Assembly: GCA_027604185.1 (NCBI GenBank)
Contig: JADGKB010000018.1
Span: 1-64,000 of the forward strand
DNA from: Boothiomyces macroporosus
Taxonomy: Eukaryota; Chytridiomycota; Chytridiomycetes; Rhizophydiales; Terramycetaceae
Length of the DNA stretch: 64,000 nt
Direction: 5' to 3'
Numbering within the stretch: the stretch's first letter is position 1; every line of letters starts with the position of its first letter. Positions 1,079 to 64,000 of the stretch are shown here, piece by piece. The position numbers and the translations under genes were made by a program. The notes below the pieces were generated by a model. That model saw only the letters and a program-made list of their open reading frames with translations. It had not been told where the DNA came from and did no database searches.

Positions 1079-2371
1079 ATGAGTATTCGTTCAAGAAAAG
1101 AGTAAATCGAATCTAACCCAGTTTCACTGAACCATTCACTTCATCAAATGACGATGTGCATTTGGAAATATCAAGCGAGCTATTGGACCGACCATCAAAG
1201 CCATCTTCCAAAATCCCACAAACTTCAATCGACTATAAAAAAGTTGCTGGATTTCTGGAAAATCTCAAACCAGTACAGGACCATTCGCATCTTCAAATTA
1301 CTTTTTATTCGCATATTACGGGTATCAGACGATTTACAAGTCTCAATAATGTGGATGTAAAAACTAGTGACATGTCAACTTTGGATGTAATATCTTCACA
1401 GCCGTTCTGGATTGATGTGTATAATCCTAGTTACCAAGATATTCAGCTTTTCGCTAATGTACGCATAGCTAAAATAGGCGTTTGATATACATCAATTGAC
1501 TGTTGGGGATATAATCGCGCCAGATACCAGACAAAAAGTAGATTCGCACCCCAAATACAACTACATTCTTGTTAAAAGTATGGCCGACACCGATTACAAT
1601 TTAGATATAAGATCAGTCCCAATCTCAATCATCCTGTTCCATGAATGTATAATCACAGTATCTTTTATTAATTGCTAGTTCCACCAACAGCCCAACAGAC
1701 ACACTAACCACGTGGTAAATAATTTGGCTCAAGAAACGAATATTTTAGAGTACCATTTACCAGATTACATTTGCTACCTGTTTATCGACGATATTACAAA
1801 CAAGTTCTTGCCATATATCCGACAACTAGAAAACGAAACTGATTCAATTGATGATTTGGTATTGATACTAAAAGCTAACGATCAATCCGATATGCTGAGT
1901 AGGATTAGTAAAGCGAGGAAAAGAGTGATGAAACTGCAACGACTAATTAATACGAAACCAGAGTTGATTAAGTTGATTGCACATAGATTGAAAGATTCTA
2001 CCACTAGTAACATCATGCTGTATTTTGAAGATGTGTATGACCACGCTTATACAATGAAACAGGATATAGCGCAATTCGAAGTTAGTTTATCAAGGAGCCA
2101 TTCGCATTATTTAGCGCAGATTAATATTGAGATCACACAGGCTAGTAATAGAGGTAACGAAATTTCCACCAATTTGACCACTCTTGCAAGTGTTCTTGTA
2201 CCGTAAAGTTATTACTGATTCAGATTGAACATTATCACTGGCTTATGGGGAATGAATGTCAAAGTGCCTGGACAAGAAAACGATAGTTTGCTATGGTTTT
2301 CAGGGATAGTTTTAATCATGGTTGCTATATCTCTTATATCTGGAGCTGCGTTGAGACGATGGCTGCTGTAA
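1079..2371 (+). CDS. CorA/Alr1/Mnr2-type magnesium transporter, five exons
   Basis: CorA-family Mg2+ channel or transporter in a membrane. Exons 1079-1101, 1122-1458, 1478-1657, 1679-2202 and 2224-2371 give 403 aa; introns are 20, 19, 21 and 21 nt. The N-terminal soluble part contains FDIHQLTVGDII and the helical LPDYICYLFIDDI segment. The last exon restores LNIITGLWGMNV, the diagnostic GMN loop after the first transmembrane helix, and then a second helix (LLWFSGIVLIMVAISLISG) and a short basic tail. The GMN motif and the two C-terminal helices are direct sequence evidence. Start choice: this ATG opens a 23-nt exon that joins in frame. Whether it is plasma-membrane (Alr) or vacuolar (Mnr2) cannot be told. 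Confidence 0.93.
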
Positions 2372-2588
2372 CCCACAGTAATATATTTTTTGGCTTTCTT
2401 TTATTATTATATGGTAGTTCGCCTGTAAAGACATCCACGAAGGCAATTCTGGATCAACTAATGTAATTGCAATTACAGAGATGGAATGTTCTTGAACCAT
2501 TATTGCTCAAGAAAATCCTTGCAACATAACCAGCAATTAACGTTCATTAGTAGAATTAACCACATGTATCACATCTTAACTTAAATCT

Positions 2589-3296
2589 TTATTTAGCGAC
2601 AAAGTCGGAAAGGTTCTTTAACCATCTTTCATATTCGTTTTGTTCTTTAAGGACAACATAGTCTGCGATAAAGTTGGATAGTTCAGAATCGAAGCCTCTT
2701 TCTTCAATGTACTTGTGGAAAGTTTCAATCAACTTTTCATCCATTTCAGAAAAGTTTGGTCCACCAAAGTCACCTCTTCTAACCCAATCGCCTTCTGCAG
2801 TGTTATCGTGTGCAACTGCTTTGGATTTCAAGTATGCAATGTTTTCAATAAAGAAGGTTTCGTCTTGCGCAACAGCAGTAATTTCCATTGCACCTTCGTG
2901 GTTGTCCTTTTCGACGAGAATGGAAACAGTAACTGGTGTAATTGGCTCTTCTTCGCTTTCGAATTCTTCTACAGCATCAGAAATGGCATCAGTTGAAAAA
3001 ATAACAGAAATGTTTTCGTTTTCGAATTTTCTCTTTAAAGAGACTTCACGTTGTCCTTCTGTGTCTTGAATCTACTATTAGCAACTTTTTACAGTCCAAA
3101 TTCCCTTAGATTTGAATTCGGTGAGAAAGTCTGGGGTTTCCTTGTTTTCCAATTCGTACTTGTGTTCTTCAGCAAGAGATTTTTGCAATTCCACGGCGAC
3201 TACTCTTAGCAACTACTTACACTTGGAGGCGAATCTCATTTGAGAGAAGGATGGTTTGAATGCAGCAGTGCGAGCAACAGCGAGTGATCGAAACAT
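2589..3296 (-). CDS. MAM33: MAM33/p32 (C1QBP) family mitochondrial matrix acidic protein, three exons
   Basis: Homologue of the trimeric, doughnut-shaped matrix protein p32, involved in mitochondrial translation and respiratory assembly. Translation gives 221 aa with a basic, Ser-rich start (MFRSLAVARTAAFKPSF) fitting a mitochondrial presequence. An acidic middle (EEFESEEEPITPV) is followed by the family C-terminus with MDEKLIETFHKYIEERG, FIADYVVLKEQNEYERWL and a final LSDF. Two 21-nt introns, both ending GCTAA then TAG, were placed by frame. The gene is convergent with the CorA gene, about 220 bp apart. Confidence 0.92.
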
Positions 3297-3869
3297 TTTT
3301 GATTAGAAAAAAAACAAAAAAAAAGTCTAAATATAAGGGGTTTAACAGTTCATAAGTTTATTTTTATGCACTGCTACAGGCACCACCTTACCAATAGTAA
3401 TGAAATTAATAACTGATTGCAGTAGAACGCTCCCCAAGTAGTTTGGTAGTTTCCTCATACATGACAGCCAGCACATTATTGATGCCGCATGTAAAGAGTA
3501 AATTCAACAGTGGTAATTTGGATATCCCATCTCGCAGGAAAGAAATGGCAAGAATTTATTTTCCCAAATCTGTACACATTTGCACTTTATATTTTGGTCC
3601 CCTTTTCTGATAAGATTGACTCTATCAAATCACACTGTATGTATAAAAATCAGTGGTACCAAATCGTACTTGACTATCAACCTGTATTCCAACCGATTCT
3701 AAAATAATAAAAGAAACTATCCCTCCAGCTCGGTACTAGACATTCAGGATCCAAGTAGCTATTCTACAAACTGTATCTTGTTCAATCACTTCTCATTGAT
3801 TCCAACTAAACAACACTGCGCCAAATGCTTGTGTTGTGGCTGTGACCAATAATTTTGTTTCCACAAACA
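3297..3869. other. Intergenic, no gene supported
   Basis: About 570 bp between divergent MAM33 and the first PLAC8 gene. An open frame of about 65 codons at 3510-3707 has no ATG start and resembles nothing. Probably promoter for both flanks. Confidence 0.5.
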
Positions 3870-4214
3870 ATGAAAGAACAACCACAAATGAGCACAGAAC
3901 CACGATTTCCTGTACCGCTTTTAGGAGCGCCTATTAAAGACTGTGCAACATGTTGCGTAGCTTGTTGCTGTTCATGTATAGTATATGGTCAAAATCAACA
4001 AAAACTGGAAGGAAAAGACGATTGTTACATTGATGGGTTCATGCATTGTCTGGCAGGATTTATAGGATGCGGCCCATGTTTAGGAGCTCATGGAAGGACA
4101 AAACTGCGGGAAGATAGAGGTATACCTGGAAATTATCTCAAAGATTGTTTCACGCATTGCTGTTGTGGATCTTGCGCTCTGACCCAAGAGAAACTTCTTT
4201 TGGATAGTCTGTAA
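3870..4214 (+). CDS. PLAC8-family cysteine-rich protein, copy 1
   Basis: 114 aa, single exon. PLAC8 (cornifelin / plant PCR, fungal DUF614-like) proteins are small Cys-rich membrane-associated proteins linked to metal handling or cell size in other organisms. Visible are the hallmark CCVACCCSCIVYGQNQQ block, then CLGAHGRTKLRE and the C-terminal CFTHCCCGSCALTQE block. The true ATG at 3870 is in frame below an unlikely TTG. It is the most divergent of three tandem copies: it lacks the MSQ.Y.QQAQM.IPKSP leader of copies 2 and 3 and the KKAGKQF tail. Confidence 0.9.
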   Translation: MKEQPQMSTEPRFPVPLLGAPIKDCATCCVACCCSCIVYGQNQQKLEGKDDCYIDGFMHCLAGFIGCGPCLGAHGRTKLREDRGIPGNYLKDCFTHCCCGSCALTQEKLLLDSL

Positions 4215-4523
4215 TTTTAATATATATTTTCGGCGAATTTTATGGTACAAAATAATTTCTTTGGTTCAAGCAGTTCAATGGGTGTTTGGGCTGAGCCCTA
4301 TGATTCAGAAGACTACAGAGTGCAACAAAAACGTTCCGAGTATTTCAATCCATACGCTGTTCTAACGCTATATCGGAATACATTGGAAAGCTGTACCATT
4401 CCTTGGTAAAGGACAGTTACTTTTTAGCAGGGCTTTGTTCTGTTAGTCTAAATGTGTAAAGGTTGAAACACCGAAGGCGTTGACATCAAAGAGTGGGCGA
4501 ACGCCAAGGTGGCATAAACCGAA

Positions 4524-4530
4524 TATAAAT
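4524..4530 (+). promoter_or_regulatory. TATA box of PLAC8 copy 2
   Basis: TATAAAT lies 27 bp before the ATG at 4557. The same spacing class is seen for the HMG genes and the lectin gene. Confidence 0.6.
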
Positions 4531-4556
4531 AGCATCCATTTTTTGTGAATGCCAAA

Positions 4557-4940
4557 ATGTCTCAACAAGTTTATGGCCAACAAGCACAAATGGGTATTCC
4601 AAAATCCCCTAATGGTGAATTCGCTGTCAGCGCTCTTGGTGCTCCAATGGAAGAAATGGGTACCTGTCTCTTATCTTGTTTCTGTCCTTGTGTAGTCTAT
4701 GGACAAAATCAACAAGCCTTGAACAACAAAGATTCATGGTTTGTAGATTGTTTCATCTATTACTGTGCTGCACAATTTGGATTCCACTCTTGCTTGGGAT
4801 GCTTTGGCAGAAGCAACATTAGAACTCAACGCCAAATCGAAGGAAGCGCTGTCAATGACTGCTGTATCCATCTTTGCTGCACTCCTTGTGCTCTCACACA
4901 AGAACGTATTGAATTGCAAAAAGCAGGAAAACAATTCTAA
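4557..4940 (+). CDS. PLAC8-family cysteine-rich protein, copy 2
   Basis: 127 aa, no intron. Leader MSQQVYGQQAQMGIPKSP, then the PLAC8 core: CLLSCFCPCVVYGQNQQ, FGFHSCLGCFGRSNIR and CCIHLCCTPCALTQERIEL. Clearly a recent duplicate of copy 3, sharing the QALNNKDS and LxKAGKQF segments. It has fewer Cys than copy 3 in the first block (GTCLLSCFCPC against GTCCTACCCPC), so the copies may differ in metal or lipid contacts; that is inference. Confidence 0.91.
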   Translation: MSQQVYGQQAQMGIPKSPNGEFAVSALGAPMEEMGTCLLSCFCPCVVYGQNQQALNNKDSWFVDCFIYYCAAQFGFHSCLGCFGRSNIRTQRQIEGSAVNDCCIHLCCTPCALTQERIELQKAGKQF

Positions 4941-5403
4941 TTTCTTAATATAATTATTCTTTCTGTTTGGAATTCTCGTTTACACCATAGTCATTGTCTC
5001 AAAAAATTTCTGATTAACAGTCAATTTCTACCAAAATGAAATTAGTTCATTTAAGAATTGTCTATAATTTCACGCGTTTAGAATGGTAAACATATCTCAA
5101 ACGGCAATCTTCACCCCGTTAAGGTCATCGAATGGATTTTATCTGTACTTGTGGAATAACCTAAATGCTTGAGGTGTTGTAAAACTGGTGTTAATATCTA
5201 ACTTGTTCTTAATGTTGATTGTTTATCTGTTGATAGGCTCGTAGAATTCTTGATTGGTTTATCTACTACGGTACGTCATCTTAAATTGGAAAGCGTGAAA
5301 GTTAACTTTTTGTTGAAAAGCTATTCTTTATAGGTCTGTTAGAACAGTTTCTCATTAATACCCATATATTCAACAATCGCAAAAGAAACTTGAATCTGCA
5401 AAA
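4941..5403. other. Intergenic between PLAC8 copies 2 and 3
   Basis: About 460 bp with no supported gene or repeat. An AT-rich stretch just before 5404 probably holds the promoter of copy 3. Confidence 0.5.
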
Positions 5404-5784
5404 ATGTCACAACCTTACGATCAACAAGCTCAAATGTCAATTCCAAAGTCCCCTGATGGCAAATTCGCCGTTAGTGCCCTTGGTGCAGCAACTGAAGATT
5501 GCGGAACCTGCTGCACTGCCTGCTGCTGTCCATGTGTAGTCTATGGTAAAAACCAACAGGCTTTAAACAACAAGGACTCTAGCTTTGGTGATTGCTGTCT
5601 CTATTACTTGGCTGCCCAATTTGGTTTCCACTCTTGTATTGGATGCAGCGGCAGAAGCAGTATTAGAAGCTGGCGCCAAATTGAAGGAAACGGCTGTAAT
5701 GACTGCTGTATCCACTGTTGCTGCACCCCATGCGCGCTTACTCAAGAAAGAATTGAGTTGAAGAAAGCAGGAAAGCAATTCTAA
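5404..5784 (+). CDS. PLAC8-family cysteine-rich protein, copy 3
   Basis: 126 aa, single exon. It has the full Cys-rich PLAC8 pattern: GTCCTACCCPCVVYGKNQQ, then GFHSCIGCSGRSSIR, then CNDCCIHCCCTPCALTQER. It is nearly collinear with copy 2, which marks them as the youngest pair of the tandem trio. The stop is only 25 bp from the stop of the opposite-strand methyltransferase gene, so the two 3' ends probably share a terminator region. Confidence 0.92.
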   Translation: MSQPYDQQAQMSIPKSPDGKFAVSALGAATEDCGTCCTACCCPCVVYGKNQQALNNKDSSFGDCCLYYLAAQFGFHSCIGCSGRSSIRSWRQIEGNGCNDCCIHCCCTPCALTQERIELKKAGKQF

Positions 5785-5809
5785 ACTAATAAATGAAAGA
5801 GTTTATTAT

Positions 5810-6628: not shown

Positions 6629-6643
6629 GTTTTTTTGAAAAAA

Positions 6644-7711: not shown

Positions 7712-8020
7712 AATTCCTTTATCATATGAAAATGGCGTAATCCAGATGAACTCTGATTTGGTCAATATAATTTATTTTCTAGATTTTTGTTTGTTGAACG
7801 TTTAGAATTTCAAAACATGTGTGCATTTCTAGAACAGCTCATCAAGTTAATGCGAGAGCTGCTTTAATTGGATTACGCGTAGCTCTATTCCTCATTTGGA
7901 GATAATATCATCTGAGCAGATCATGAACAGTCGGAGATATACCAAGCCACCTTCGGTTGGAATGTAATTTTACGCGCGTTTGTTGTTAACTTTAGATAAG
8001 CAAGAATATCTGGCCACATA
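7712..8020. other. Intergenic, likely forkhead promoter
   Basis: 309 bp without a supported gene. No repeat or RNA gene seen. Confidence 0.5.
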
Positions 8021-8959
8021 ATGGAAATGCAACAAAATAAACAATCTAGCTCTCGCAAGCGGTCTGCTCCTGCCTCTCCTACTCCACCTACTTTCTTTGA
8101 CCAAGTCTTAAAAATTGCTTCAGCATCAAAACCACAAAAACCACGAAAGACCAAGGTCTCAAAGAAAGGTGAACAAGTATACCTTTTTAAAAACAAATTG
8201 CATGCTCATCCACGTCCAGATTTATCCTACAACGAATTAATTATAGAAGCAATCAAGAAGTCTGAAAATCAAATGGCCTCACTCCAAGAGATATACGATT
8301 ACATTCAAGATACATATGAATTTTTCAAAGAGTCTACAGTCGTAATGACTTGATTAACATAGGCTTGGCAAAACTCCATAAGACATAACTTGTCTGTTCA
8401 AAAAATGTTTGTTCGCGTTCCAAGGCCTCCAAACAACCCTGGAAAGGGTGGTTTGTGGAAGCTATCTGACTGGGCAATAGAAAACGCGGCAGTGCAAAAG
8501 AAACGAAAGCCTGAAGACTCTACTGCTGTAAACTCACCATCAGTAAATAACGCGAATGTCGACAAGATCGACAAGGGAAAATACGAAAACTTGGATTCAC
8601 AGCTTCTCGATTCTATTATCGGATACAGTAACCCAGATTACGGATATAAAGAGATGGCACCAGTCAAACTTGACCATGCACCTTTTGCTCCAGCAGCAGA
8701 ATACCACTACATGCAACAATTTCAACAAACGCAATCTTCAACGGGACTAATGGACACCCTAGCAACTATCGCCTTGAATAACAACGGGCACGATTTCAAC
8801 CACTGGCAGTATCAAGAAATGTATCATCAACCAGCCGGTTTCTCTTATGAGCAGACACAAGAAAGAAAAGTAGATAATAGTAACTTTGGAGTTATGTTGA
8901 ATCCGCTCGTTGGAGATAAGACCCTCTTGCAAGCTACCTTTAGCGATAGTATGGAATAG
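8021..8959 (+). CDS. Forkhead (winged-helix) transcription factor, two exons
   Basis: 305 aa. The forkhead domain covers about residues 55-155: [38 protein letters not shown], then the recognition helix [20 protein letters not shown] and [14 protein letters not shown] 21-nt intron at 8342-8362 splits the domain; removing it joins STV to [11 protein letters not shown] exactly. The N-terminus is basic (KKRSAP-like, KTKVSKKGE) and the C-terminus Gln-rich, as in activation regions. The usual KPPYSY start is altered to RPDLSY. Nuclear DNA binding is well supported; targets are unknown. Confidence 0.93.
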
Positions 8960-9227: not shown

Positions 9228-10675
9228 ATGTTGGCTAAAGGTTCCCTTCACTGACCATAGAATTCCTAAAGTTTGTTGATGCATCTCCTTCGCCATTTCA
9301 TGCAGTAAAAGAATGTTCAACCCGCTTGTTGGCAAACGGATTCAGCGAAATCAGAGAATCAGATGTTTGGAGTTTGAAGCCAAACGGAAAATACTTTTAC
9401 ACCAGAAACAAGAGCGCAATCGTTGCCTTTGCTGTTGGTGGAAAATACAAGCCTGGAAATGGTTTCTCGATTGTTGGTGCACATACTGACTCTCCTTGCT
9501 TCAAGATAAAGCCAGTAAGCAAAATTGTGGAATCTGGATATTTGCAAGTTGGTGTTGAACTATATGGAGGCGGTATTTGGCACACTTGGTTTGATCGCGA
9601 TTTGTCGATTGCTGGAAAAGTTATTGTCGAAAAGAACAACAAATTTGAGCAAGTCCTGGTAAAAATTGACGAATCGCTTTTAAGAATTCCTACACTTGCA
9701 ATCCACTTGGATCGCACCGCTAACGAGTCTTTCACCTTTAACAACGAAGAACAACTGGTTCCAATTTTAGGTCAAGTAAAGAAGGCGTAAGGATAAATTT
9801 AATAGTAGAATTGAAAATGACAAGCCTCATCATGCAGAACTGTTGAACTTGATCTCTATGAAAATTGGGGTCTCTGCTGATCAGATTAAAGATTTTGAAC
9901 TGTGTTTGTACGATACTCAACCTGCAGCTATCGGAGGACTCAACGGTGAATTTATTCACTCTGCCAGGCTAGATAATTTAATGATGTCTTTCTGTGGGAT
10001 CAACGGGTTGATTAATGCAGGAGATTTGGAAAATGATGAAAACATTCGAGTTTGCGCATTATTTGATAATGAAGAAGTTGGAAGTGTTACTGCCCACGGC
10101 GCAGATAGCAATTTGATGGAAGTTACATTACAGCGTTTGGCAAAAATTGGAAATCCGACCGAGGTAGGACAAACAGCTATTATAATGCTTATTTTTGGAA
10201 CAGATTAACTTTAGGAAGGAGTATTCGAAAGAGCTATGACTAAATCTTTGCTTGTCTCTGCCGATATGGCCCACGGTCTTCATCCAAACTACAAGAACAA
10301 GCATGAAAAGAACCATCAGCCTACTCTAAACGGTGGAGTGGTAATCAAGCACAACGCCAACCAAAAATATGCCACTACATCAATTACATGTCTCATTCTT
10401 AAAGAAAGTGCCAAAGTTGCAAATGTCAATCTTCAAGAATTTGTTGTTAGAAACGACTCGCCTTGTGGAAGTACTATTGGCCCAATGTTGAGTGCCAAAC
10501 TAGGCTTACAAACCATCGATGTCGGTAATCCACAGTGGTCCATGCACTCTGTTCGTGAAACTGCAGGAACAAAGGATGTAGGAGATGCGGTGCTTTTATT
10601 CAAGGTATCCTTTAATTAACTTAGGCATTCTATGAAAATTTCGCATCTATTCAAAGAAAGTTGTCTGATCAATAA
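9228..10675 (+). CDS. Aspartyl aminopeptidase (M18, Ape4/DNPEP type), five exons
   Basis: About 445 aa zinc aminopeptidase that removes N-terminal Asp or Glu. A 15-nt-scale first exon (MLAK) joins across a 20-nt intron to [19 protein letters not shown], the family N-terminus. Metal-site motifs are visible: GAHTDSPC (His ligand), FDNEEVGS (Glu/Asp) and SADMAHG (C-terminal His). Introns: 9241-9260 (20 nt), 9787-9805 (19 nt, or 22 nt with the next TAG, both in frame), 10164-10214 (51 nt, the only long one in the window) and 10605-10624 (20 nt). The last exon adds the C-terminal helix [16 protein letters not shown]. Confidence 0.93.
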
Positions 10676-10742
10676 AATAATTGTTGTCCTCTTACTTTTT
10701 TTATTTGGGCGAATGTTTATCCAAACAAAAATCTACATCTAA

Positions 10743-11588: not shown

Positions 11589-13268
11589 TTATTCATTTCG
11601 TTTAGTTGCGTTGACTAGTAACCCATGCTTCAAGCTATATGTAATCTGCTGTATATTTTCAATTGGATGTTCTGGTACAAGTGAAAATTTGAACTTTTGG
11701 ATTAGGCGGATTGCAATTATCTTGCCCTCAATAATCGCCAACTTTTGGCCAATACACCTTAAAATTAGTCACGTCTTACATATGCGGTCCGTCAGAGAAT
11801 GGAATAAAGCTTCCGGGTACAATTGGATTATTAAATCTATCTGGGTTGAAAATAAATGGGTGTTTGTGATATTCTGGATCTCTGTGTATTCCATGAGCGA
11901 ATATCATAAATTTTTGGCCTGCTTTAAACGAATATCCTCCAACAGTGGTATCTACTGCTGCAATTCTTGATACAGCAGGGACAACAGTGTGTAATCGTTG
12001 GGCTTCTTTAAAAACATTTTCTAAATAACTATCTTAGGATAACTTACTGTAAATTCTGGAATGTTTCAGTGAATTTTTCGCTTTCAAAATCCACTTGCTT
12101 TACTTCCTGATACAGCTTCTCTGCAATAGAGGGATTTTTGCAAAGCTCATAAACCAAGTAAGTGAGTGTATTGGCTGTAGTTCTAATATTAGCCGTTCCT
12201 ACTCATGGCCGGCAAAGAAGAACCCTACAAGCTCTCCATAAACCTCCTCTTCCGTCAAGAGCTATTTTAATTTAAAATTTACCCCTTTTTCTTGCGATAT
12301 TAGTAACCTATGGAGGACATCCATATCCCAACTCTCTTGGCCATCCTCGTTACTCCTAATTTTTTCTAGTCTTTCATCCGCCAACTCCTTCAAGAAGGAA
12401 TACACGTTACTCTTTGCCTTTGCAACCTTTGGAGAAGTTACATCAGCTCCAAGTGCTTTGTGCAAGAAAATTGGCATGGCAAAACGCTTATATAAATAAT
12501 TAACTACCAACATGAATACATCGTTTGTCATTGATTCCAAATCGTGCCATTCACCGCTGCTATTCTCGTCAAATGATTCTACAGCTTTCATATTCTTTCC
12601 AAAAGCAACTTTTCCACTGTGTTAGCAAATTGTACATAATGTCTAGTGTCATGCATTTCAAAGCAGCATGCATATTTACTTTGCAGCTGCCAGTGCTTGA
12701 AGAATCTATTTTACTATTCAAGACATTTTCAAATTCCATGACTGATGATCGCGACGCTTCCGCTGCGTTTCTCAAATGAGTCGGTCCAAATGCAGGCTGC
12801 AACAACTTTCTGTGTCAGCTTTCTAGTACCGATGTTTTTTCCACAAGTCTCCGGTTGGAAGAACAAATAGTGCGTAATCCAACAGCCCTATCATCTTTTG
12901 TCTTACTCCGTCACCTTTGACAAATGTATCCGTATCAGTGAATAAACGCTTTGCTTCTTTTGCGTCCGCTACTACAACACTATCCCCCATCAATCCCAAA
13001 AACCTAAAGATTCGTCCATACTTTAGAATGTTTTTGCCCATATAGTTGTACATTTTAAACTTGAATACATATCTTGATTAGTTTATAACAACTTGTATTG
13101 GTCTGGATCCCCAATAATAGGATAGTTTTTTGGTCCTGGAACAGCCGACTTTGGCTTCCTTGCCAGTAGATAGTATGCAATAATCGATATTACCATCGAA
13201 TTTGCGACCAATACTGCATTTGGCTTACTCGCAATAGTATTTGATATCGTGATAATGATTGATGACAT
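11589..13268 (-). CDS. Cytochrome P450, copy 1 (eight exons)
   Basis: 512 aa membrane-anchored monooxygenase. It has an N-terminal anchor (VLVANSMVISIIAYYLLA), then the proline hinge VPGPKNYPIIGD. The helix-C region is LWKKHRKLLQPAFGPTHLR. The I-helix oxygen motif reads FFFAGHETT across an intron, the ExxR motif is EAQR (in FKEAQRLH), and the heme loop is PFSDGPHMCIG with the Cys ligand present. The Arg of FxxGxRxCxG is His here, a known allowed variant. Seven introns of 20, 20, 19, 21, 20, 19 and 22 nt were placed by alignment to its two neighbours. Substrate unknown. Confidence 0.92.
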
Positions 13269-13325: not shown

Positions 13326-14992
13326 TTAGATTCTTTCCTTCACATTCACCAATAAGCCATGTTTGAGACCATAGGTAATTGAAAGCACGGCGTCTAGCGG
13401 ATGGTCTGGTACAATATCAAAGTAAAACTTTTGGACCAGTCGGACAATTATAATCTTTGCTTCAATAACAGCCAACTTTTGACCTATACACCTGCAATTA
13501 ATTAGTGTTACATATGTGGTCCATCTCCAAATGGTAGAAACACTTTTGACTCTGCCTGTTGATTCCAACGGTCAGGGTTATACTCTCTTGCATTGTGATA
13601 GTTTTTTTCACTTAGATGAATACCTCTAAAGTTTAAAATAATCTGCTGTCCTTTCTTGATGGGATAGCCTCCAACAGTTGTATCTACTGCTGCTGTTCGT
13701 AACACATTTGGCACTGCCGAATGAAGTCGCATCGCTTCCTTTAAACAATTGTCGAGATATCTTGTTAAAACAAAAAGTACTTTATCTTTGAAATCGATTC
13801 TGATAAATTCTCACTTTCAAAATCGACATCCTTCACTTCTTGGTAAAGCTTTTCCCGGATTTCTGGGTTTTTTGATAGCTCCATAAACAGGAATGTCAAT
13901 GAATTTGCAGTAGTTCTAAGTTAGCTTTTTTGTACTCGTGGCCAGCAAAAAAGAAACCAATGAGTTCACCGTATACTTCATCTTTGGATAATATCTACTT
14001 CAGAAAGAGAATACCCCTTTATCTAAAGAGATCAAGAGCCTATGCAAGACATCCATATCCCATTTTTCCTGAGACACTTCTTTGGTTCGGATTTTTTCCA
14101 GTCTTTCGTCAGCCAGCTCATCCAAGAATTTGTAAATTTCTTGCTTTGCCTTTGCTACTTTTGGAGAAGTCAAATGAACCCCCAATAATTTGTAAAGCCA
14201 TGGATGAGTACCGAATCGGAAGGCAAAGACATCAGAAGTAATTGCATCCAAGTCATCCCAACTGCCATTACTCTTTCCATTGAGAGATTGCACTGATTGC
14301 ATTCTAGGTTAAGCTAAACTGTACGATTTTCCAAACGCAACTTTCCCACTAGGTTAATTCCATTTACATTATATCCAGGGTGATGCATTTTAAAGCGGTG
14401 TGTAGATCAATCTGAACATTCTGAACCTTGGCCAATCGATCGGTCAACAACTGCTCAAATTCCAAAACAGATTCTCTGGATGCCTCGCCTGCATGACGCA
14501 AATGATTTGGTCCAAACGCAGGCTGCAATAATTTTCAATCGTTATAAAAGAAATACCTATGTTTCTTCCACAAATCTCCTGAAGGAAGCAGGAACAACGC
14601 ATTGTCAAGCAAGCCAATCATCTTGGAGCGCAACTCGTCACCTTTAATGAATGTATCAGTGTCCGTCAATATTCGCTTTGCTTCTTGGGCATCCGCTACC
14701 ATAACCATGTTTCCAGCCAACCCATCTGTTTGAAAGATTGGACCATACTTGTTGATGTTTTTCTCGTGATATTCGAATGCTTTAAATTTGAATAAATAGC
14801 TGGATTAGTATTTTCTGACCTGTAGAAATCTGTGTCTCCAACTATTGGCCACCCGCTCGGACCAGGAATCGTATTCGTTTTCTTTCCAGTGTGAGTGTAG
14901 TAATACACAATAGAAGATATAGCGGCAATATTAACTGCAATCAGTAGTGCCTTTGGCTTATTATCAAAGAGAGTTTGCAAGATGGTTGACAT
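13326..14992 (-). CDS. Cytochrome P450, copy 2 (nine exons)
   Basis: 501 aa paralogue of copy 1, lying 57 bp upstream of it on the same strand. It has an N-terminal membrane anchor, IPGPSGWPIVGD hinge, LWKKHRKLLQPAFG, GFFFAGHETT, the ExxR motif EAMR and heme loop LPFGDGPHMCIG, with His replacing the usual Arg. Eight introns of 19-21 nt. The third junction, at 14536-14556, only restores the HRKLLQPAFG frame if the intron ends in TG rather than AG. Total coding length after removal is divisible by three. Its start codon is 50 bp from the CCT4 stop. Confidence 0.92.
14536..14556 (-). other. Non-canonical 21-nt intron (GT..TG) in P450 copy 2
   Basis: Paralogues splice exactly between HR and KLLQPAFG at this point. 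Here the intron begins GTATTT, has a branch-like TAAC and ends ATTG. The nearest AG (13 nt further) would break the frame. Confidence 0.7.
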
Positions 14993-15042: not shown

Positions 15043-16759
15043 TTAACGAACAGCAACACTACAGTTAATATAAATACTTACATATCATCGATTTTCATAA
15101 CCATCTTGACAGTTTCAGCAGCAAGAGTAATTGCACTGGTGGATACCAAAAGTGGTTGGATTACATTCTCTTCCAAGATATTGCTGATTGTTCCTTTACG
15201 CACATTAATACCAGCAGTAATTTCACCATTAGCGTGTCTGTTACGCAATTCAGTAACAATTCTAATTGGATTAAGACCTGCATTCTCGGCCAAAGTGTAT
15301 GGAATAACCTCAAGGGCATTTGCAAATTCTTGGAAACAATAAGCTTCCATACCTTTCAAAGATTTTGCCAAGTGGTGAAGTTTTTGGGAAATGTATACTT
15401 CAGGGGCACCGCCGCCAGCAATCAAGGCTCTCTTCTTTACGAGACAGCGGATAACACACAAAGCATCATGGAGAGATCGTTCAGCTTCTTCTAAAACAAG
15501 GTGGTTGGCACCTCTAATCAAGACACTGACGGATTTCCCTGCATTCTTTACACCAGTGATTTGAACGTATCTAGCACCCATGCTGGATACCTCTTCAACC
15601 ATATTGGCATATCCCAACTTGTCTTCAGTGAAAGATTCAATATCAGCGATAGGTTTGCATCCAGTAGACTAAATTAGCTTTTCAATACCTTGCAGATAAA
15701 TTCAACTTCATCACGCTCAATTTCCTTGACAGTCAAAATCTTCAACTTTGCCAAAAAGTGAAGTGACAAGTCATTTACAGCATCGCGCAATATAGACTTT
15801 TGAATCAACAATACATTGCATCCGCTCTTTTTGATTTTTTTACATAAATTCAATAAATATTGACGCTCTTCCTTCAAAATTTTATCCATTTGACGATAAT
15901 CATTAACAATGACTTGGTTGTCAATCTACAGTCAAAGATCAGTTACATCTGGTTTTGGTGGAGATAGTTGGAATTGAATCAATGCAATCTTGGCCTTTTC
16001 CATTCTGCTTGGACCTCCTGCACTAGTGATGACATTTTGAGTCAACACCAAACCGTCTACCATGACAGTATCATCGATGGTTCCTCCCAATTTCGTGACT
16101 AAACGAATATCTCTTAAATCTACATTGGTTGAAACTGCTGGATCTATAACTTGAAGCACTGAATCGACAGCAATTGGTGATAAAAGGGTAGAGTATTGAG
16201 AAACAATCTTTGAGTTCAATGAAGTTGAAGCTGCTCGCAACAACGATTCTCTATCAGTAAGATCAAGCTTGGTAGAGATCTCTTCCAAGTATTTGGAACA
16301 GATATCAGCAGCCCGGGTGAAAGACTCTGCAATAATTGTTGGATGAATTCCTTGGTGAAGCAAACTTTCGGCAGCAGTCAAGAGACTTCCAGCTAATACT
16401 ACAACTGATGTGGTACCGTCTCCAGCTTCGACATCTTGAGCGGCAGACAAATCAACCAACTAAATTAAAATCTAAAAACCATTTTAGCAGCAGGGTGCAT
16501 GACAGACATGTGCTTCAGAATAGTCGCACCATCGTTAGTAATCACAACTTCTCCTTTTCCAAATTGAATCTAGCATTACTAACAGTGTACCATCTTGTCC
16601 ATTCCTTTTGGTCCCAAACTAGTTCTGATCGCGTCGGCGACAGCTATTATAAATTATGCAAATACCTTTGGCTGCGATAATATTGCTTGATCGTACTTCC
16701 TTTGGCTTTTCCTTGTCTCTAAATTGAGTTTGTTTTGGGGCAGATGCAGCTACAGCCAT
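15043..16759 (-). CDS. CCT4: Chaperonin CCT/TRiC delta subunit, seven exons
   Basis: 529 aa group II chaperonin subunit of the cytosolic TRiC ring that folds actin and tubulin. Visible: [19 protein letters not shown], the ATP-site loop [19 protein letters not shown], and the delta-typical run [15 protein letters not shown] region with [18 protein letters not shown] and [15 protein letters not shown]. The C-terminus is KIDDIVAVR after a 23-nt intron. Six introns (22, 21, 20, 21, 20 and 23 nt). Delta identity rests on [10 protein letters not shown] and the KIDD(I/V)V..R end. Flanked by P450 copies on both sides. Confidence 0.95.
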
Positions 16760-17015: not shown

Positions 17016-18611
17016 ATGCAAAACCTACGGGAATTAGTTGTGACCAAACCAAAGATTGCGGCAGTGTCTGCAATCATCGCATACTTTTGCTACAAATTCT
17101 TTAGGCAGTTCCTGTCGCCTATGCGAACTATTCCTGGCCCTATATACTCTCCCCTGTTTCCAAGCTTCCAAGCGGTTGCTTACCTTCGCAAACGCAAGTT
17201 TTTTGAATATCTCGACAAACTATTAAACAAATATGGAAAGATCTTTAGGTTTATTGGAGTTGCGGGAGAAAGTGTAGTAGTCACGGATGCCAGGGAAGCT
17301 AAAAGGATTTTAACTGATACCACTGAGTTTACAAAAATGGGATTAGCAACCTTTAGACCACTGCAATTGTTGGATTATGCGCTATTTGTCCTTCCTTCGG
17401 ACGACTTGTGGAAGCGGCATCGGAAATTGCTACAGCCAGCTTTTGGACCAACTCATCTTCGCCATACTGCAGAAGTATCCAGGGATACAGTTCTTGAACT
17501 GGAGGCCAAAATCAGCTCTAAACTAAGTAAAGAAAAACAAGTACGGCTCAACATGCATTCTGTACTATCCTGCACCACGTTGGATATAATGTAGATAATT
17601 TTTAATTTAGTGGCAAAGTTGCCTTTGGGCATTCGATGCGAGCTGTTGAAACACTTGACGATCGAAGCACAGGAAGCTGGGAGGATTTGGATACAATTAC
17701 AACAAAGCTTTTACCATTCAGAATGTCTGCTCCTACAATACTTTGGAAATTACTGGGAATTGATAACTCTAATCCAGAGTTTTCCAAAGCGAAACAAAAT
17801 GTTGATAAATTACTGGAGGATCTGTCAAGTGAAAGATTGGAAAAGATTAGAAACAAGGAATTGATTCAAGAAAAGTGGGATATGGATGTACTTCATCGGC
17901 TATTGATTTCGCAAAATAATGGGGTAATTAACGACTAATTTAGATGATGACCAAAGAAGAAGTGTTTGGTGAATTGGTGGGATTCTTTTTTGCTGGCCAT
18001 GAGTACAGAAGAGTTAACATAGAACTACTGCGAATACGCTTACTTTTGTAGTACTCGAGTTGTGCAAGAATCCTGGAATTGAAAAGAGACTATTTGAGGA
18101 AGTGAAATCAATCGATTTTGCAAAAGACAACTTGCTGGAAATTCTTCCGTCCTTAAAGTAATGAGAAACTGATTTAGATTTTTGGACAACATTTTCAAAG
18201 AAGCTCAAAGATTACACCCAGTTGTCCCAAGTTTGCTGCGAATTACCACACAAGACACAACCATAATGGGGCACTTTGTACCTAGAAACACTCGTGTTGT
18301 AGTAAATATTCGAGGTATACACCAAAGCAGCGAATACTATTCAAATCCAATGGAATACAACCCAGACAGATGGGATACACCACCAGTTGTAGGTTCATTT
18401 CTTCCATTTGGCGATGGACAAAGGAACTGCATTGGCCAGAAAATGGCAGTTATTGAAGCCAAGGTAATTTCTCCTAATTTAGATTATTCTGATTGGATTG
18501 ATTCAAAAATTTACTTTCCAATTGGATCCAAATCATCCTCTCGATCCAACCTTGTCCATTACCTATGGACTGAAATCAGGAATGATGGCATACATTAGCC
18601 AAAGAAAATAA
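17016..18611 (+). CDS. Cytochrome P450, copy 3 (six exons)
   Basis: 498 aa paralogue of copies 1 and 2, on the opposite strand and separated from them by CCT4. It has an N-terminal anchor (IAAVSAIIAYFCYKF), IPGPIYSPLF hinge, LWKRHRKLLQPAFGPTHLR, FFFAGHETTANT, the ExxR motif EAQR and heme loop LPFGDGQRNCIG with the canonical Arg. Introns at 17591-17610, 17924-17943 and three more, 19-20 nt each. TATTTAAGG about 35 bp upstream may be the TATA element. The ATG at 17016 is the first in frame. Substrate unknown. Confidence 0.93.
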
Positions 18612-27375: not shown

Positions 27376-28846
<1,471 letters not shown>

Positions 28847-30173: not shown

Positions 30174-32460
<2,287 letters not shown>

Positions 32461-32554
32461 TTGTTGTCCAAGATGTGTGAACTTGAAAAAAAAAGCTTAC
32501 ACCAATTGACATCAAGGCAATTTTCAAGCACAATTCAAATATATTTAAAACAGT

Positions 32555-36122: not shown

Positions 36123-36123
36123 C

Positions 36124-51650: not shown

Positions 51651-52869
51651 TTACTTTGAGTTTATTACATTATACAAGTCGTCAAAAGCCGTTTCGTCAA
51701 ATACCACTCGTTCATGAGCAACTTCTTGAATCTTGACTGGAACTTGCAAATACTTTTGAATGAAGCCGTAAATTAGAGAATCCTGGATCTTATGCGCTTC
51801 AACAGGGTTAGAACCACATTGCTTGGCCATTGACATAATCTTTGGGTACAGCAACCCAAAATCTGAAGCATCATTGTGCTTTGTGTCTTTGATGTAAGCT
51901 ACTTTGGTTTCGGCCTTTTTGCTCCTCTCAACGAGTCGTTGTACTGCATCAAGATTGGACTTCCAATGAAACACCTAGGATTAAAATTAAACTTACGTGA
52001 CTTTGAAGATTCATGTGAGGTATGTGGATTTCTGCTTCTGGATTGACGGCATGCATCCACGGATCAAGAATAACAGCACATTTGAAATTAATTTCATTCG
52101 CTTCCAAAACATGGATACTCGTGGCTCCCTAATATAAAACCAAAATTACCCCAAAGGAATGGCCAACAAGTGCCTTGTTGTCAAAATCAAATCTATTCTG
52201 GAACTGGTTGAGTAAAGTATTCTTTTTAGATTCATCTTTTGAATAAATGAAACTGTCATCTCCGGAATCAATTCTCTTTAACAATTCTAGCACTGTATAA
52301 ACTTCGTTTTTGCGATGTGTCAGTTGCGACCTTCTGAAACGCAAGGCATACTCTGTTTCGGTTTCACCATCCAACACTTCTTCCTTTGCAGGATGATGAT
52401 AAGGGATTTCCAAATCATTAGCATGTCTGACAGTGGCACAAGCTGATCCGTCACCGTGCTCAATAGCAGCAACTATAAATCCTCTTGAAGCTAAATTTCC
52501 ACATAGATTGGAATACGTAGTACGCATACCGGCTAATCCATGAGAAAATATAACCACAGGTAACTTTGTTGGAAGAGAAGCAGTTTCGAGCGGTGTTTCC
52601 TTGAACGCAGCTAATTTTGTGTATACCAGGAATGGATAAATAAACGTCGAGATTAAATAAGTCGGAATATTAAGGAAATTTCCGTATCCTTTGGAGTAGA
52701 ACCATCCTTCAGGTAGCCAATTCTGTTTTGGTGCAGAGGTTGTCGAAGTGGGGTAATATAATCGGAAGAGAACACCCTTCCTTAGCGGTGAGTTGCCATC
52801 TGGGTTTGATTCGATATCTACAAATCCTACTTTATGTGGTCCTTGATAATTTGGCAGGTTGGCAAACAT
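51651..52869 (-). CDS. Platelet-activating-factor acetylhydrolase-like lipase, three exons
   Basis: 391 aa alpha/beta hydrolase of the PAF-AH II/plasma type, acting on short or oxidised acyl chains of phospholipids. Seen: the N-terminal LFRLYYPTST strand, oxyanion region PVVIFSHGLAGMRTTYS, nucleophile elbow ALVGHSFGGATS (Ser, restored across a 21-nt intron), catalytic Asp in VILDPWMHAV and His in DTKHNDASDFG. Introns 21 and 22 nt. Starts at the ATG 18 nt below a GTG. Physiological substrate unknown. Confidence 0.9.
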
Positions 52870-52962
52870 GAGGGTGAGTTTTTCCACTTGGTCTACAATT
52901 TATATTTTGCCAGGCTTAGGCCGAAACAAGGAGAAAAGGCGCCGCAATCGGACGACTTGATC

Positions 52963-54144
52963 TCAGTATTTATTAGCAATTTCTTGAATGTCTTTAGATT
53001 GCAAATAGGAAATCAACGTTGCGTTCTCTTCTGGAGTGCCAACAGTAATTCTCAAGCATCCGAGACAACCGAGTTCGTTTCCTCTGAATCTAACTACAAC
53101 CCCACTGATTTCAGCTAAATGCTTGTAGATATCCATTGCTACTCCATTGTCGGGAATGCCTTGCTTGTTTACAAACTGTGCGAGTACAAAGTTAGCGTCA
53201 TGAGTCCCTAAAAATCCACCAATAAATGGTAGTTTTGACATTTGGATCATCAGTAGTTTACGCTGCTCTTTGATTGACGCAACATAGCTTGCCATTACTG
53301 GCAATCCATCTCCTAGGGCCTGATTTGCAATATTGGATGTCAAAGTAGAGATATTGTATGGTGCCTTTGTATTGTTGAATATTTGGGCAATCTCTGGTGA
53401 TGATATAGTATATCCTAATCTACATTAACTCCAACTACCTGATTCCTGCCAATCCGAATGCTTTTGAGAGAGTCTGGCTGACAATCAAATTTGGATATTT
53501 TTCTACTAAAGACGAGCAAGAGGCATCAGCACAAAAGTCAATATATGCTTCATCGACAAACACAATTCCTTTAAATCCAGATTCCAATATTTGGACAATG
53601 TCAGTCTGTGCAAGCAAAGTCCCAGTAGGGTTTCCAGGCGAACACAAAAACACAAGTTTGATTGTTGGGTCTTGTTGGATTTCCTTTAATATCTGAAATT
53701 AAAAATAATTACACTTGGAACATCCAATTGAAACTTTCCGCCCTCAACAATCAAAGGTACTTTGGCAATTCCAGCATCGTTGATGTTTGCGGATACAGAA
53801 TACATTCCGTAAGTTGGAGGAGTGATCAATATCTTTTCTTTTCCAGGTTGAACAAATACTCTGATCGCCATATCAATACATTCATCGCTTCCAACCCCCA
53901 AAAAGAATCGGTTTGTGGATTGAATATTACGGAGCTTGCACAGCTTTTCCTTTATTTCCAGCTGATAAGGATCTGGATATCTTTCCAAGTTCCCATTTAC
54001 AAAGCTGGAATTTTGTGGTAGCGATGACCCGTGAGAGTTTTCGTTTGCATCCAAGAGAATTCCAGAAGAGTAATCGTCTCTGGCGCATCTGTAAGGCTTT
54101 AATGCGTAGATGTTTGGTCTCACAATTGATTTTAAATCAAACAT
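52963..54144 (-). CDS. HIS5: Histidinol-phosphate aminotransferase, three exons
   Basis: 380 aa PLP enzyme of histidine synthesis, turning imidazole-acetol phosphate into histidinol phosphate. Motifs: LLDANENSHG, ERYPDPYQLEIKEKL, FLGVGSDECIDMAIRVF, TPPTYGMYSV, LCSPGNPTG, FVDEAYIDF and the PLP-lysine segment SQTLSKAFGLAGIRLGY, restored across a 19-nt intron. Other intron 20 nt. The C-terminal RFRGNELGCLGCLRITVGTP binds phosphate. Stop is 93 bp from the PAF-AH start on the same strand. Confidence 0.95.
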
Positions 54145-57402: not shown

Positions 57403-57437
57403 TATAAATAAGACAGAAAAGGCGTGCCTGATCAATA

Positions 57438-59046: not shown

Positions 59047-59083
59047 TATAAATAATTGGGAGATTTGCATGAGTGATTAGGAA

Positions 59084-59611: not shown

Positions 59612-59700
59612 TTGCTCCTATTTATATTACACTAGTACTAATAATAAAAAATTCTAGTAATTCCAACTTTTTGAATTTTTATTTTTTTTTTCAAATCAAA

Positions 59701-61005
59701 ATGACTCGCAATTGGGACATTATCCAACAGGGAGACTGGATAGTTATTAAAATGCCATCTGGAAACCAAAAATTAATCCAGCTACAACCAAATGTACAAA
59801 TTGAACTTGGAAAGTTTGGAAAGTTTCAATCGTCAGAACTGATTGGAAAATATTACTCTGTTCCATTGGAAATATACGATAGAGATAAACTGAAACGAGT
59901 CGAGAATACGGATTACTTATTAGACTTTGAAATAGATCCTAGAGTTGAAACTGATGCTACCAACCAAGAGATTTTCGATGATGCAAATTCCCAAAAACTA
60001 ACTCAAAAAGATATTGAAGAAATGAAGCTAAAGAGCTTGGATGGCAGCGTTCATCACCAAACCATAATCAAAGAAATTGTGTCCAATAATGAAAAGTTTA
60101 ACGAGAAAACCGAGTTTGCCAAAGCGAAATATATCAAGCGCAAAGTCAAAAAGTAATATTTGCTAATTCAGGTATTCCAAAATCTTTATCCCACTGTTTC
60201 CTAACGCACGCAATTTGATCGAGTATCACAACTTGAAAAATCCTGAAAAGATTCACGAATTACGAATTGATTCTTTATCTCAAATACTGACATATGCCAA
60301 TGTGCGTGCTGGTAGCCGGATGTTGGTTTGCGATGACACTGGCGGTCTGTTGGCGACTGCGATTTTGGAAAGAACTCATGGACTTGGAACTTGTTACTTT
60401 TTCCATGATGGTCAGAATGCTAGTTTGGAAATAATGAAATGCTCCAACTTTTCAAATGAAGTATTATCCTCTTTCAAAACCTTTGCATATCAAAACATTG
60501 GAAAACAGCCTGAACTACGAGGTGTGTAGTGTTAATAATAGAAATTGAAGAGGGCGCTGATGTAAAGCCAGAGTTAATTGAGAAAATCAACGCCAGAAAT
60601 GCCAATATCAAAGAAACTTTTTCTACTCTAGAGCAAGGAGGGTTTGATTCGTAAATTTCGACTAAATCTAGTTTAATAATATCAACTAAATTTGATACAA
60701 CTGAAGTAATTAAAAAGCTGGAGCAGTTTTTAGCACCATCTGCTATAGTGGTTGCATACTCTGCCAGAAAAGAGTTGATTTTGGAAGCTTATGAATATTG
60801 TCGCAAGTCTCCTTCATATGCAAACACTTTCTTGACAGAAAGTTGGTTGCGTGAATATCAAGTTCCCGTATTCACTTCAGGAACGCATCCAAATATGATG
60901 ATGTCTGGTTCTGGTGGATTTATATTCAGTGCAACAACAGTGACTACTCCCGAAGGCTTGGTTATTGACAAAACTACAAAGCGAAGAAAGACTAGTAAAA
61001 ACTAA
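59701..61005 (+). CDS. TRM6: tRNA m1A58 methyltransferase non-catalytic subunit, four exons
   Basis: 414 aa Gcd10/Trm6 homologue; with Trm61 it methylates A58 of tRNAs in the nucleus. Seen: IIQQGDWIVIKMPSGNQKLI, the ELIGKYYSVPLEIYD segment, SQKLTQKDIEEMK, LFPNARNLIEYHNLKNPEKI, ANVRAGSRMLVCDDTGGLL (degenerate SAM fold) and near the end MMMSGSGGFIFSATTV. Introns 19, 20 and 21 nt, all with CTAA- or TTAA-type branch sites. The basic tail (TKRRKTSKN) may be a nuclear signal. Confidence 0.93.
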
Positions 61006-61126
61006 TTATTCTCAATATTTTAATTTCTTTTGATACTGTAACTTTTGAACCATTGGTGAGAATCAAATAAAGGAATGAAATCAAATCAAAGTATCACGAA
61101 TTTAACTACTGGTTGATAATAATTTC

Positions 61127-61324
61127 ATGGACAGTTACATTATATCAGTTTCGATATCCCCATTGTTTCTTTCATTTTGTGTTTATCAAATGGTTCTTGG
61201 ACTGTTTCCAGACGTTCAGCATGCAATAGTATTCAGCATAGCCACCCTAGTATCTTTTAGCATCATAACATTTACCAATGGTGCATTCAGCTCAAGCGCG
61301 ATGGTAAAGTTCATTCACCTTTGA
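61127..61324 (+). CDS. Possible small two-span membrane protein
   Basis: 65 codons from an ATG in a 380-bp gap. Two hydrophobic stretches (IISVSISPLFLSFCVYQMVL and HAIVFSIATLVSFSIITF). Not recognised, no promoter evidence; may be chance. Confidence 0.3.
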   Translation: MDSYIISVSISPLFLSFCVYQMVLGLFPDVQHAIVFSIATLVSFSIITFTNGAFSSSAMVKFIHL

Positions 61325-61383
61325 TGAGCCCAGTTCGATTAACCATTGAGGCCCTCAAAAACTATGGAAAATAATTTCAATAA

Positions 61384-62769: not shown

Positions 62770-63025
62770 ATAAAGCAAAGCAAATATTTACTCATTTCCA
62801 CCAAATCTATATGCTTGCCGTTTGAATATATTTGTACCATGTAATCCGCTTTTGGCTATTGTCCTTTGGTTTCAAACTAGTATAAACAAATTGACCAATC
62901 ACAAATTATATTATCAATCCACGATATATCCATGAGGAAAGTAATTTTAAATCCACCTTTTATTAATTACATCTCCATGATAGAGAACCTCTATAAATAC
63001 ACGTAAAATAATAACATGTCATACC

Positions 63026-64000
63026 ATGCATCTATCTGCCAAACTAGTCACTTTACTAGCTGTTCCTACTGCTTTTGCAGGATTATTCAACCTGATTCCG
63101 CCTGTGCAAGACTACTTGTGTCTTCCAAAGAATAGCCCAAACATTACTGCTCGTAACCAACAATTAGCCATCCAACAACAAAACTTTATTGACGGCCCAG
63201 GATTTTTTACTATTGCTAACCAACCAGGATACTTTCCAATGCCAAATGGTCCACAATTCACTCCAACCTGGTACCAATTGATGCTTTCTGAAATTGGTGA
63301 AATTGCTTATAGATCAAATGCATCTGCTTTCCAAGCTGAACAACTTATTCCGTATGACTTGGTGGCTGCTGGTATTCCAATCAATTCTCTAACTGATTTG
63401 ACAAACATGGTAGACTTTGAACTGACAATAGTACTACAACTTTACTTCAGCTATCCGTTTTCCTTATTCAATCATCAACTGGGAAGCCGATTCGTCATTT
63501 GGCCAAGACAGGTTATCATGGGGTGGATACTCTTTGAAAGCTGAAACTGCCAATGTGTTGAATGTCCCAGACACTATCACCGTACAACTCACTGGCTTAA
63601 CTTTTGCCCAGTTATTGTCCCAAAATAGAATCTACAAGGTTGATTATTCCAACATTGGTAGCCATATCTAACTTTAGGCAGCTATTCCAAATCAAACGTT
63701 GGTCAAGCAAATCCACTGGGACAATCCATTCCAGGTACTTATTTGAATTTGTACATTGATGCATCCGGAAATCCTTACCCTCTTGCTATTAAAGTAGTTG
63801 ACACTGGTTTGGTTTACACTCCTTTGGATGCTCCTGAAGATTGGATGTTTGCCAAGCTGGCTTTCTCCACTAGTGAAGGATTCTTTTTACCAATGGAACA
63901 CTTCCTGATTAACCACATGAGCCTTATCGCTGCCAGAGTAGAACTGATGCGCCATGTCTCTGTACAACATCCAGTATACGCTTTGCTTAGCCACCACTTT
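63026..64000 (+). CDS. Secreted lipoxygenase, N-terminal part (3' partial)
   Basis: Non-heme iron dioxygenase of polyunsaturated fatty acids; runs off the window. Signal peptide MHLSAKLVTLLAVPTAFA. A 22-nt intron after residue 134 (from GTAGAC) and a 20-nt intron near 63650 restore the lipoxygenase frame: DRLSWGGYSLKAE, DTITVQLTGLTFAQLL, YLNLYIDASGNPYPLAIKVV, DAPEDWMFAKLAFS. Two iron-ligand histidines with the family spacing are in EHFLINHMSLIAARVELMRH, followed by VQHPVYALLSHHF. The remaining ligands and C-terminal Ile would be beyond 64000. Manganese or iron type cannot be decided. Confidence 0.88.

Follow-up and report, generated by a model that had tools for sequence, protein, structure and literature searches.

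The 64,000-base stretch analysed here (bases 1–64,000 of contig C18; hereafter the window) belongs to the genome of Boothiomyces macroporosus, which comprises 15,203,306 bases (15.2 Mb) in 216 contigs. The genus is free-living and is placed by NCBI in Chytridiomycota, Rhizophydiales, Terramycetaceae. Genes in the window include a CorA-like transporter, a MAM33-like gene, a forkhead gene, an M18 aspartyl aminopeptidase, three P450s (P450 A, B and C), CCT4, a KMO-like gene, chitin synthase and kinesin, Sec15 and TRM6, and their coding frames are interrupted by putative introns of about 20 nt (Table 1). An initial annotation, made from the DNA letters, had described about 85 such junctions. At the DNA level this observation is confirmed, both in the window and genome-wide: most introns belong to a single narrow size class of less than about 25 nt.

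Five window genes were aligned codon by codon to proteins of Gorgonomyces, Batrachochytrium and Globomyces. This spliced alignment is independent of any coding statistic, and it charges a constant cost for an intron of any length from 12 to 250 nt (14 for GT-AG; 20 for GC-AG and GT-TG). With one protein per gene, 39 of 41 introns measured 19–23 nt, the 41 being distributed over CCT4 (6), P450 A (8), P450 B (9), P450 C (5) and Sec15 (13). The two exceptions were a 27-nt call in the poorly aligned N-terminus of P450 B (14882–14908), which we distrust, and a 41-nt site in Sec15. A second chytrid protein gave identical introns in CCT4, and a second, more distant Sec15 returned the same 13 introns together with a dubious 38-nt call at the start. 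In an earlier alignment that permitted any dinucleotide, some boundaries moved by a few bases and a few doubtful calls were added; an alignment restricted to GT-AG placed introns of 17 and 68 nt at two Sec15 sites needing other ends. The proposal that removal of the short segments restores conserved proteins is supported by these alignments for CCT4, Sec15 and the three P450s.

The same class was recovered by a gene finder with a fourth-order, frame-specific coding model that jumps across introns of 10–200 nt, run on the window and ten 20-kb stretches of contigs C1–C10 (264 kb, 11 contigs). Under a flat prior, with all lengths from 10 to 200 nt equal and no signal used beyond GT and AG, 34 of 55 GT-AG introns were 17–24 nt long. 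When ten control dinucleotide pairs were given to the same code, each yielded 40–48 'introns', with 1–4 in this range. After lengths, donor and acceptor had been learned from the finder's own output until it converged, 317 of 366 introns were 17–24 nt long, with a median of 20 (19 nt, 67; 20 nt, 132; 21 nt, 90; 22 nt, 20). The trained models place 83 short introns and 15 longer calls in the window, close to the number of junctions first described. In the ten other stretches, 234 of 268 introns are short and 34 longer, and the ~20-nt class is present in all 11 sampled contigs. Introns are carried by 84 of the 110 gene models, at 1.75 short introns per kb of coding sequence; scaling this density to 15.2 Mb gives an extrapolated ~18,000 short introns genome-wide.

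Across the whole genome, the pattern GTAAGT-N(0-30)-CTAAC-NN-AG, which permits 15–45 nt, had 37 matches, and 35 of these were 19–22 nt long (P about 4e-29 under equal likelihood of all 31 lengths). The count becomes 33 of 35 when three identical copies in a tandem repeat, lying 2,021 bases apart on contig C143, are counted once. One of the two exceptions, at 36 nt, closes with a complete 19-nt unit preceded by AG. The narrow length found in the sampled contigs and in this pattern test agrees with the initial annotation. Its more sweeping statement, that all but one intron measure 18–23 nt, stands in part: 39 of the 41 homology introns agree with it and the 51-nt intron of the M18 gene fits the exception, but the window also holds a composite site and ten other longer calls. 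Likewise, 'almost without exception' is true of the narrow class and has to be relaxed for that 51-nt intron, the ten longer calls, a few composites and rare GC-AG or GT-TG ends.

Table 1 Genes of the window with predicted short introns; intron lengths in nt are given in brackets
Feature	Position	Strand	Introns	Basis and remarks
CorA-like transporter	CDS 1079-2371	+	1102-1121 (20), 1459-1477 (19), 1658-1678 (21), 2203-2223 (21)	Gene models; spliced protein covers Pfam CorA profile 3-292/292
MAM33-like		-	3200-3220 (21), 3072-3092 (21)	Gene models; MAM33 profile 1-212/212
Forkhead gene		+	8342-8362 (21), within domain	Gene models; Forkhead 2-81/88 spans junction
Aspartyl aminopeptidase (M18)		+	9241-9260 (20), 9787-9808 (22), 10164-10214 (51), 10605-10624 (20)	Gene models; M18 profile 1-432/432; spliced residues 3-441 align to solved aspartyl aminopeptidase
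P450 A		-	13073-13092 (20), 12810-12829 (20), 12617-12635 (19), 12487-12507 (21), 12262-12282 (21), 12183-12202 (20), 12029-12047 (19), 11758-11779 (22)	Alignment to Globomyces P450
P450 B		-	14800-14819 (20), 14349-14367 (19), 14304-14324 (21), 13995-14014 (20), 13916-13935 (20), 13761-13780 (20), 13492-13511 (20)	Homology alignment
P450 B, GT-TG intron		-	14536-14556 (21)	Required by homology
CCT4		-	16644-16665 (22), 16570-16590 (21), 16460-16479 (20), 15926-15946 (21), 15669-15688 (20), 15059-15081 (23)	Gorgonomyces and Batrachochytrium CCT4
P450 C		+	17591-17610 (20), 17924-17943 (20), 18003-18022 (20), 18158-18177 (20), 18464-18482 (19)	Homology alignment; 98% identical full-length NCBI protein in Boothiomyces sp. 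JEL0838
KMO-like		-	28705-28722 (18), first intron	Frame read by eye; FAD_binding_3 match
Chitin synthase and kinesin model	30174-35431	-	11: ten of 20-22 nt, one of 100 nt	Kinesin 1-326/327; Chitin_synth_2 21-527/527
Sec15		-	38839-38858 (20), 38676-38694 (19), 38589-38608 (20), 38496-38515 (20), 38312-38331 (20), 38170-38189 (20), 37635-37654 (20), 37331-37349 (19), 37016-37035 (20), 36835-36854 (20), 36706-36724 (19)	Globomyces and Batrachochytrium Sec15
Sec15, GT-TG intron		-	36932-36951 (20)	Required by homology
Sec15, composite		-	38906-38946	20-nt GC-AG unit and 21-nt GT-AG unit, head to tail
TRM6 (Gcd10p family)	59701-61005	+	Three, of 19, 20 and 21 nt	Gcd10p profile 1-280/295

The 317 short introns have a common anatomy. 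With G and T fixed by definition, the third base is A in 91% of them (a GTA donor) and the fourth in 57%, after which the sequence is T-rich. GTAAT is the commonest donor; GTAAG, which the initial annotation had named beside it, is only about as frequent as GTAAA and GTAAC. The acceptors are TAG (213), CAG (71), AAG (31) and GAG (2), so that TAG or CAG accounts for 284 of 317; homology requires a TG end at two other sites. Introns average 29% GC, compared with 38% for the window. A branch-like site near the acceptor, also part of the original description, was recovered: a free scan found a good YTRAY motif in 226 of 317 introns, with 5 nt (115) or 6 nt (81) following its A in 196 of these 226. 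If the best A is chosen among positions with 4–7 nt after it, a range restricted by design, 5 or 6 nt follow it in 296 of 317, and the lariat ring predicted from this restricted choice is 14 nt (124), 15 nt (143) or 16 nt (39). Introns of about 20 nt have no space for a separate polypyrimidine tract.

Retention of a short intron would shift the frame or meet a stop in 295 of the 317. In-frame stops are present in 72 of the 94 introns divisible by three (phase 0, 34/38; phase 2, 26/28; phase 1, 12/28), compared with 62.3 ± 4.1 when phases were re-dealt and middle bases shuffled, a null that reached 72 or more in 20 of 2000 trials. The excess is mild and agrees with a surveillance of mRNA left unspliced. 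In Paramecium, too, introns divisible by three carry stops.

Several components of a U2-type spliceosome, ordinary in appearance, were found in the genome. Rfam models matched U2 twice (142.2 and 135.4 bits) and U6 (62.2 bits), and the 5' end of U1 (AUACUUACCUG), the branch-pairing region of U2 (GUGUAGUAUC) and the ACAGAGA of U6 are intact. The predicted introns combine GT-AG ends and a donor complementary to U1 with a putative branch site, near the acceptor, complementary to U2. SF1 is present (114.6 bits), and its own model has introns of 24, 22 and 21 nt. The spliced U2AF65 model, with introns of 21, 19, 20, 19 and 19 nt, has three RNA-binding regions and aligns to solved U2AF65 domains. 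Cwc25, with MGGGDLNLKKSWHP at its start, can be aligned to solved CWC25 from the first residue; its GGG N-terminal plug is kept, with no change of the Stentor type, and is compatible with a ring of 14–16 nt, if the introns are spliced. Yju2 likewise aligns from residue 1 to a solved YJU2 chain. Residues 1–31 of Isy1 match none of eight solved ISY1 chains, the match starting at residue 37 or later in seven of them, but this part of the model depends on a 1-nt exon, which lies between two 20-nt introns (locus L034, bases 1225–1330). As a side observation, C49:3542-3652 and C100:5137-5247 have equal scores, and loci L036 and L037 read alike, representing a duplicate or a second haplotype.

Taken together, these sequence data suggest, with a probability that we put at about 0.94, that B. 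macroporosus has numerous true spliceosomal introns of U2 type, with a narrow length near 20 nt, mostly 19–22 nt. We infer that they are efficiently spliced, as follows. Each intron would consist only of a donor of GTA type, then a short spacer, a YTRAY branch site whose A is followed by 5–6 nt, and an acceptor of YAG type. By intron definition, U1 and U2 would recognise their sites across the intron, after which a lariat ring of ~14–16 nt would form and the 3' splice site would be picked by its distance from the branch. The narrowness of the distribution suggests a floor that is set by spliceosome geometry and was reached by shortening. A comparison of CCT4 with viral_contigs, in search of DNA of relatives that might reveal shrinkage of introns in place, gave no match.

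Several points weigh against this conclusion. The 317 of 366 obtained with the trained finder is partly self-reinforcing, because the finder learns its own length prior, unlike the flat-prior, homology and pattern tests, which are not. The backwards control of the pattern search had 57 matches versus 37 for the pattern, and the evidence from this search is therefore the concentration of lengths only, not the number of matches. No good YTRAY match is present in 91 of the 317 short introns, and 'branch site' here denotes the motif only. U1 scored 68.8 bits, just below the curated cut-off of 69.5, and U2AF65 scored 230.7 bits on unspliced frames, under its cut-off of 310.3. The Rfam search of the genome for U5 and the search for RED (RED_N) gave no match, each being run with no positive control.

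One might also accept the short introns as real and regard them as one mode only, many ordinary introns of 50–200 nt having been missed. Among the 366 model introns, 49 exceed 24 nt, and the flat prior returned 21 of 55 at other lengths. These 21 calls are, however, fewer than the 37–46 outside the short class for every control pair, as expected of false calls, and 39 of the 41 homology introns were short although all lengths from 12 to 250 nt were equally costly. Moreover, four of the 15 longer window calls were contradicted, with short introns hidden inside. Reading the KMO frame by eye replaced a 45-nt call by an 18-nt intron, and homology replaced a 177-nt call in P450 B by a 21-nt GT-TG intron, a 110-nt call in Sec15 by the 41-nt two-unit site, and a 142-nt call in Sec15 by two 20-nt introns, one of them GT-TG. 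The 51-nt M18 intron is credible and stands after frame reading and structure alignment; some of the other ten longer calls probably join neighbouring genes. We therefore consider a missed second mode unlikely.

Errors in assembly or sequencing, or decay of the genes, could also break frames that are then patched as fake introns, and the TG ends needed at two sites, in P450 B and Sec15, are what a decayed gene might require. Permitting GC-AG and GT-TG raised the alignment score of P450 B from 807 to 878, its GT-TG intron being the sole such intron used there, and that of Sec15 from 2322 to 2402, with GT-TG and GC sites together. In both GT-TG introns the TG ends 5–6 nt beyond the branch-like A, at the distance expected for AG. 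GT-TG was rejected as an intron class: runs of the finder with alternative acceptors on the 264-kb sample did not single out TG (short alternatives and those with good signals: TG, 8 and 2; TT, 11 and 2; AA, 7 and 3; in a stricter run, TG 2 and TT 2), and for this reason our claim is restricted to the two sites. Of all alternatives, GC-AG improved the score most (by 35), with good signals at 4 of 6 sites, and GC-AG introns are likely, not proven, in this species; CA donors gained 26, with good signals at 5 of 6 sites. Error or decay is nonetheless very improbable as a general explanation, the breaks sharing a single length class and motif set throughout the sample and genome, and occurring in housekeeping CCT4, Sec15, MCM7 and U2AF65 with frames otherwise intact. 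Just as hard to credit is that the segments stay in the RNA and are skipped by ribosome bypassing or read through with frameshifts: this would likewise give intact proteins from interrupted frames and found no specific support, whereas the segments run from GT to AG and have a branch-like site whose spacing hardly varies, the control pairs show no peak, and the genome has spliceosomal U1, U2, U6, SF1 and U2AF65.

If the segments are indeed short spliceosomal introns, a few interruptions appear to be composites of them. Both units of the Sec15 composite have their own branch-like site; the alignments to both proteins treat the site as a single 41-nt intron with GC-AG ends, and other analyses returned it as the two units. 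A METTL-like gene (C6 stretch, L015 and L016, minus strand) has three 19-nt units head to tail, and MCM7 (C8 stretch, L019, plus strand near bases 90–131) has units of 21 and 22 nt with a zero-length exon between them. Five solved chains match MCM7 from query residue 9–11, upstream of the junction at residue 16–17; the solved relatives of the METTL-like protein align from residue 50 only, past the junction. Strong zero-gap unit pairs occur twice in the 264 kb, both times within the METTL-like triple, and never in any of ten shuffles; the pairs of Sec15 and MCM7 score below the threshold for strong pairs. The idea that long introns are always multiples of 20 was dropped, few of the 15 model introns of 34–75 nt splitting cleanly. 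A composite may be removed as one intron or unit by unit.

Zero-nucleotide recursive splice sites are known, at which adjacent introns have no exon between them. Such sites and stwintrons resemble the few tandem units here in being adjoining introns without an exon. In a stwintron, one intron interrupts the splice signal of another, whereas the units here lie head to tail with their own signals; this label was rejected for the Sec15, MCM7 and METTL-like units, each of which has its own ends. A bolder proposal, which we regard as doubtful, is that the spliceosome counts in units of ~20 nt, takes a 20-nt block as its default substrate, removes some longer interruptions as exonless stacks of blocks, and sets the 3' end by branch distance, with TG then able to stand in for AG. 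It would amount to a miniature, length-quantised form of recursive splicing by an otherwise ordinary fungal spliceosome.

The fungal host presumed at the outset is confirmed by the CCT4 model, which has 100% identity over 99% of the query to NCBI protein P0001 of B. macroporosus. Compared by eye, P0001 follows five of the six CCT4 introns and breaks off within the sixth. A P450 of this species, NCBI protein P0196, is cut to 326 aa and matches parts of the P450 A model: at least one intron is used, a block between two others is lost, and one 21-nt intron is kept as seven residues. Terramyces P0003, which is without the N-terminal part, runs by eye from CCT4 into a P450. The ~20-nt introns thus appear to be already implicit in public annotation, where some are used and others mis-spliced. 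Judging from these three comparisons by eye (CCT4, P450 and the Terramyces CCT4-P450 fusion), some public proteins of this family are damaged.

Elsewhere in the window, the chitin synthase and kinesin model probably represents two genes merged by the gene finder. Three consecutive cysteine-rich open frames at 3846–5784 look like PLAC8, a label that we assume here. Seven single-exon models between 40774 and 59611 have a common HMG-box-like start (KPxNSFFxYRK ... WQPW) and form a local expansion of intronless genes; the one that was scanned matches HMG_box. Part of this cluster separates the Sec15 region (36606–39262) from an aminotransferase (51651–54144). An aminotransferase domain and Sec15 are predicted as a single protein in one Homolaphlyctis and three Batrachochytrium salamandrivorans proteins, and the two genes therefore probably adjoin in those fungi. 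A scan of the window for tRNAs, with bacterial settings, found none.

At about 20 nt, most introns predicted here come near the lowest lengths known from any organism. Introns near 20 nt are otherwise reported, in the parts of the papers examined, from ciliates, nucleomorphs and reduced parasites. Among the matches listed in the open-access literature there was no fungus with ultra-short introns, and none of the papers mentioning Boothiomyces concerned its introns by title; the genome paper, which reportedly appeared in PNAS in 2022, may mention such introns. If the introns described here are spliced, parasite-scale genome reduction is not needed for introns of ~20 nt, nor is a plug loss in Cwc25 of the kind suggested for Stentor, SF1, U2AF65 and Yju2 being of the ordinary type. 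A fungus could then be used to test how small an intron can be and how 20 nt can accommodate U1, U2 and the branch helix.

A study of 644 fungal genomes names Cryptococcus, in the part consulted, for its relatively short introns of mean 63 bp (PMC8476143). Like those described here, at ~20 nt, these and other fungal introns are U2-type, and intron definition is expected for them. The introns of Paramecium are likewise short and numerous, with a median of 24–25 nt in the portion of the source consulted (PMC12862383); those here are ~4–5 nt shorter, and in a fungus. The relevant part of PMC10245619 gives 18–21 nt for chlorarachniophyte nucleomorphs, 15–16 nt for heterotrichs and 16–17 nt for mikrocytids. 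The mikrocytid introns are similarly uniform and very short, but they belong to reduced parasites whose spliceosome is highly reduced and whose genome, in the case of Mikrocytos, has 224 predicted introns in all, compared with the 317 modelled here in 264 kb (PMC10245619, same part). Chlorarachniophyte nucleomorph introns occupy the same narrow size class as ours; they reside in the remnant nucleus of an endosymbiont, whereas those described here are in a 15.2-Mb fungal genome (PMC10245619, same part). Stentor coeruleus, with introns of 15–16 nt, has in common with B. macroporosus a narrow length range, AU-richness, GT-AG ends, a branch A 5 nt before the end and snRNAs that look ordinary (here U1, U2 and U6), as set out in the part of PMC9505925 consulted. 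The suggestion made there is that alterations of the Cwc25 plug and of the Isy1 N-terminus may keep these proteins from clashing with the sharply looped lariat (PMC9505925). Compared with Stentor, the introns of B. macroporosus are 4–6 nt longer, their predicted ring is ~14–16 rather than 10–11 nt, and the GGG N-terminal plug of Cwc25, missing in Stentor, is kept (PMC9505925, same part).

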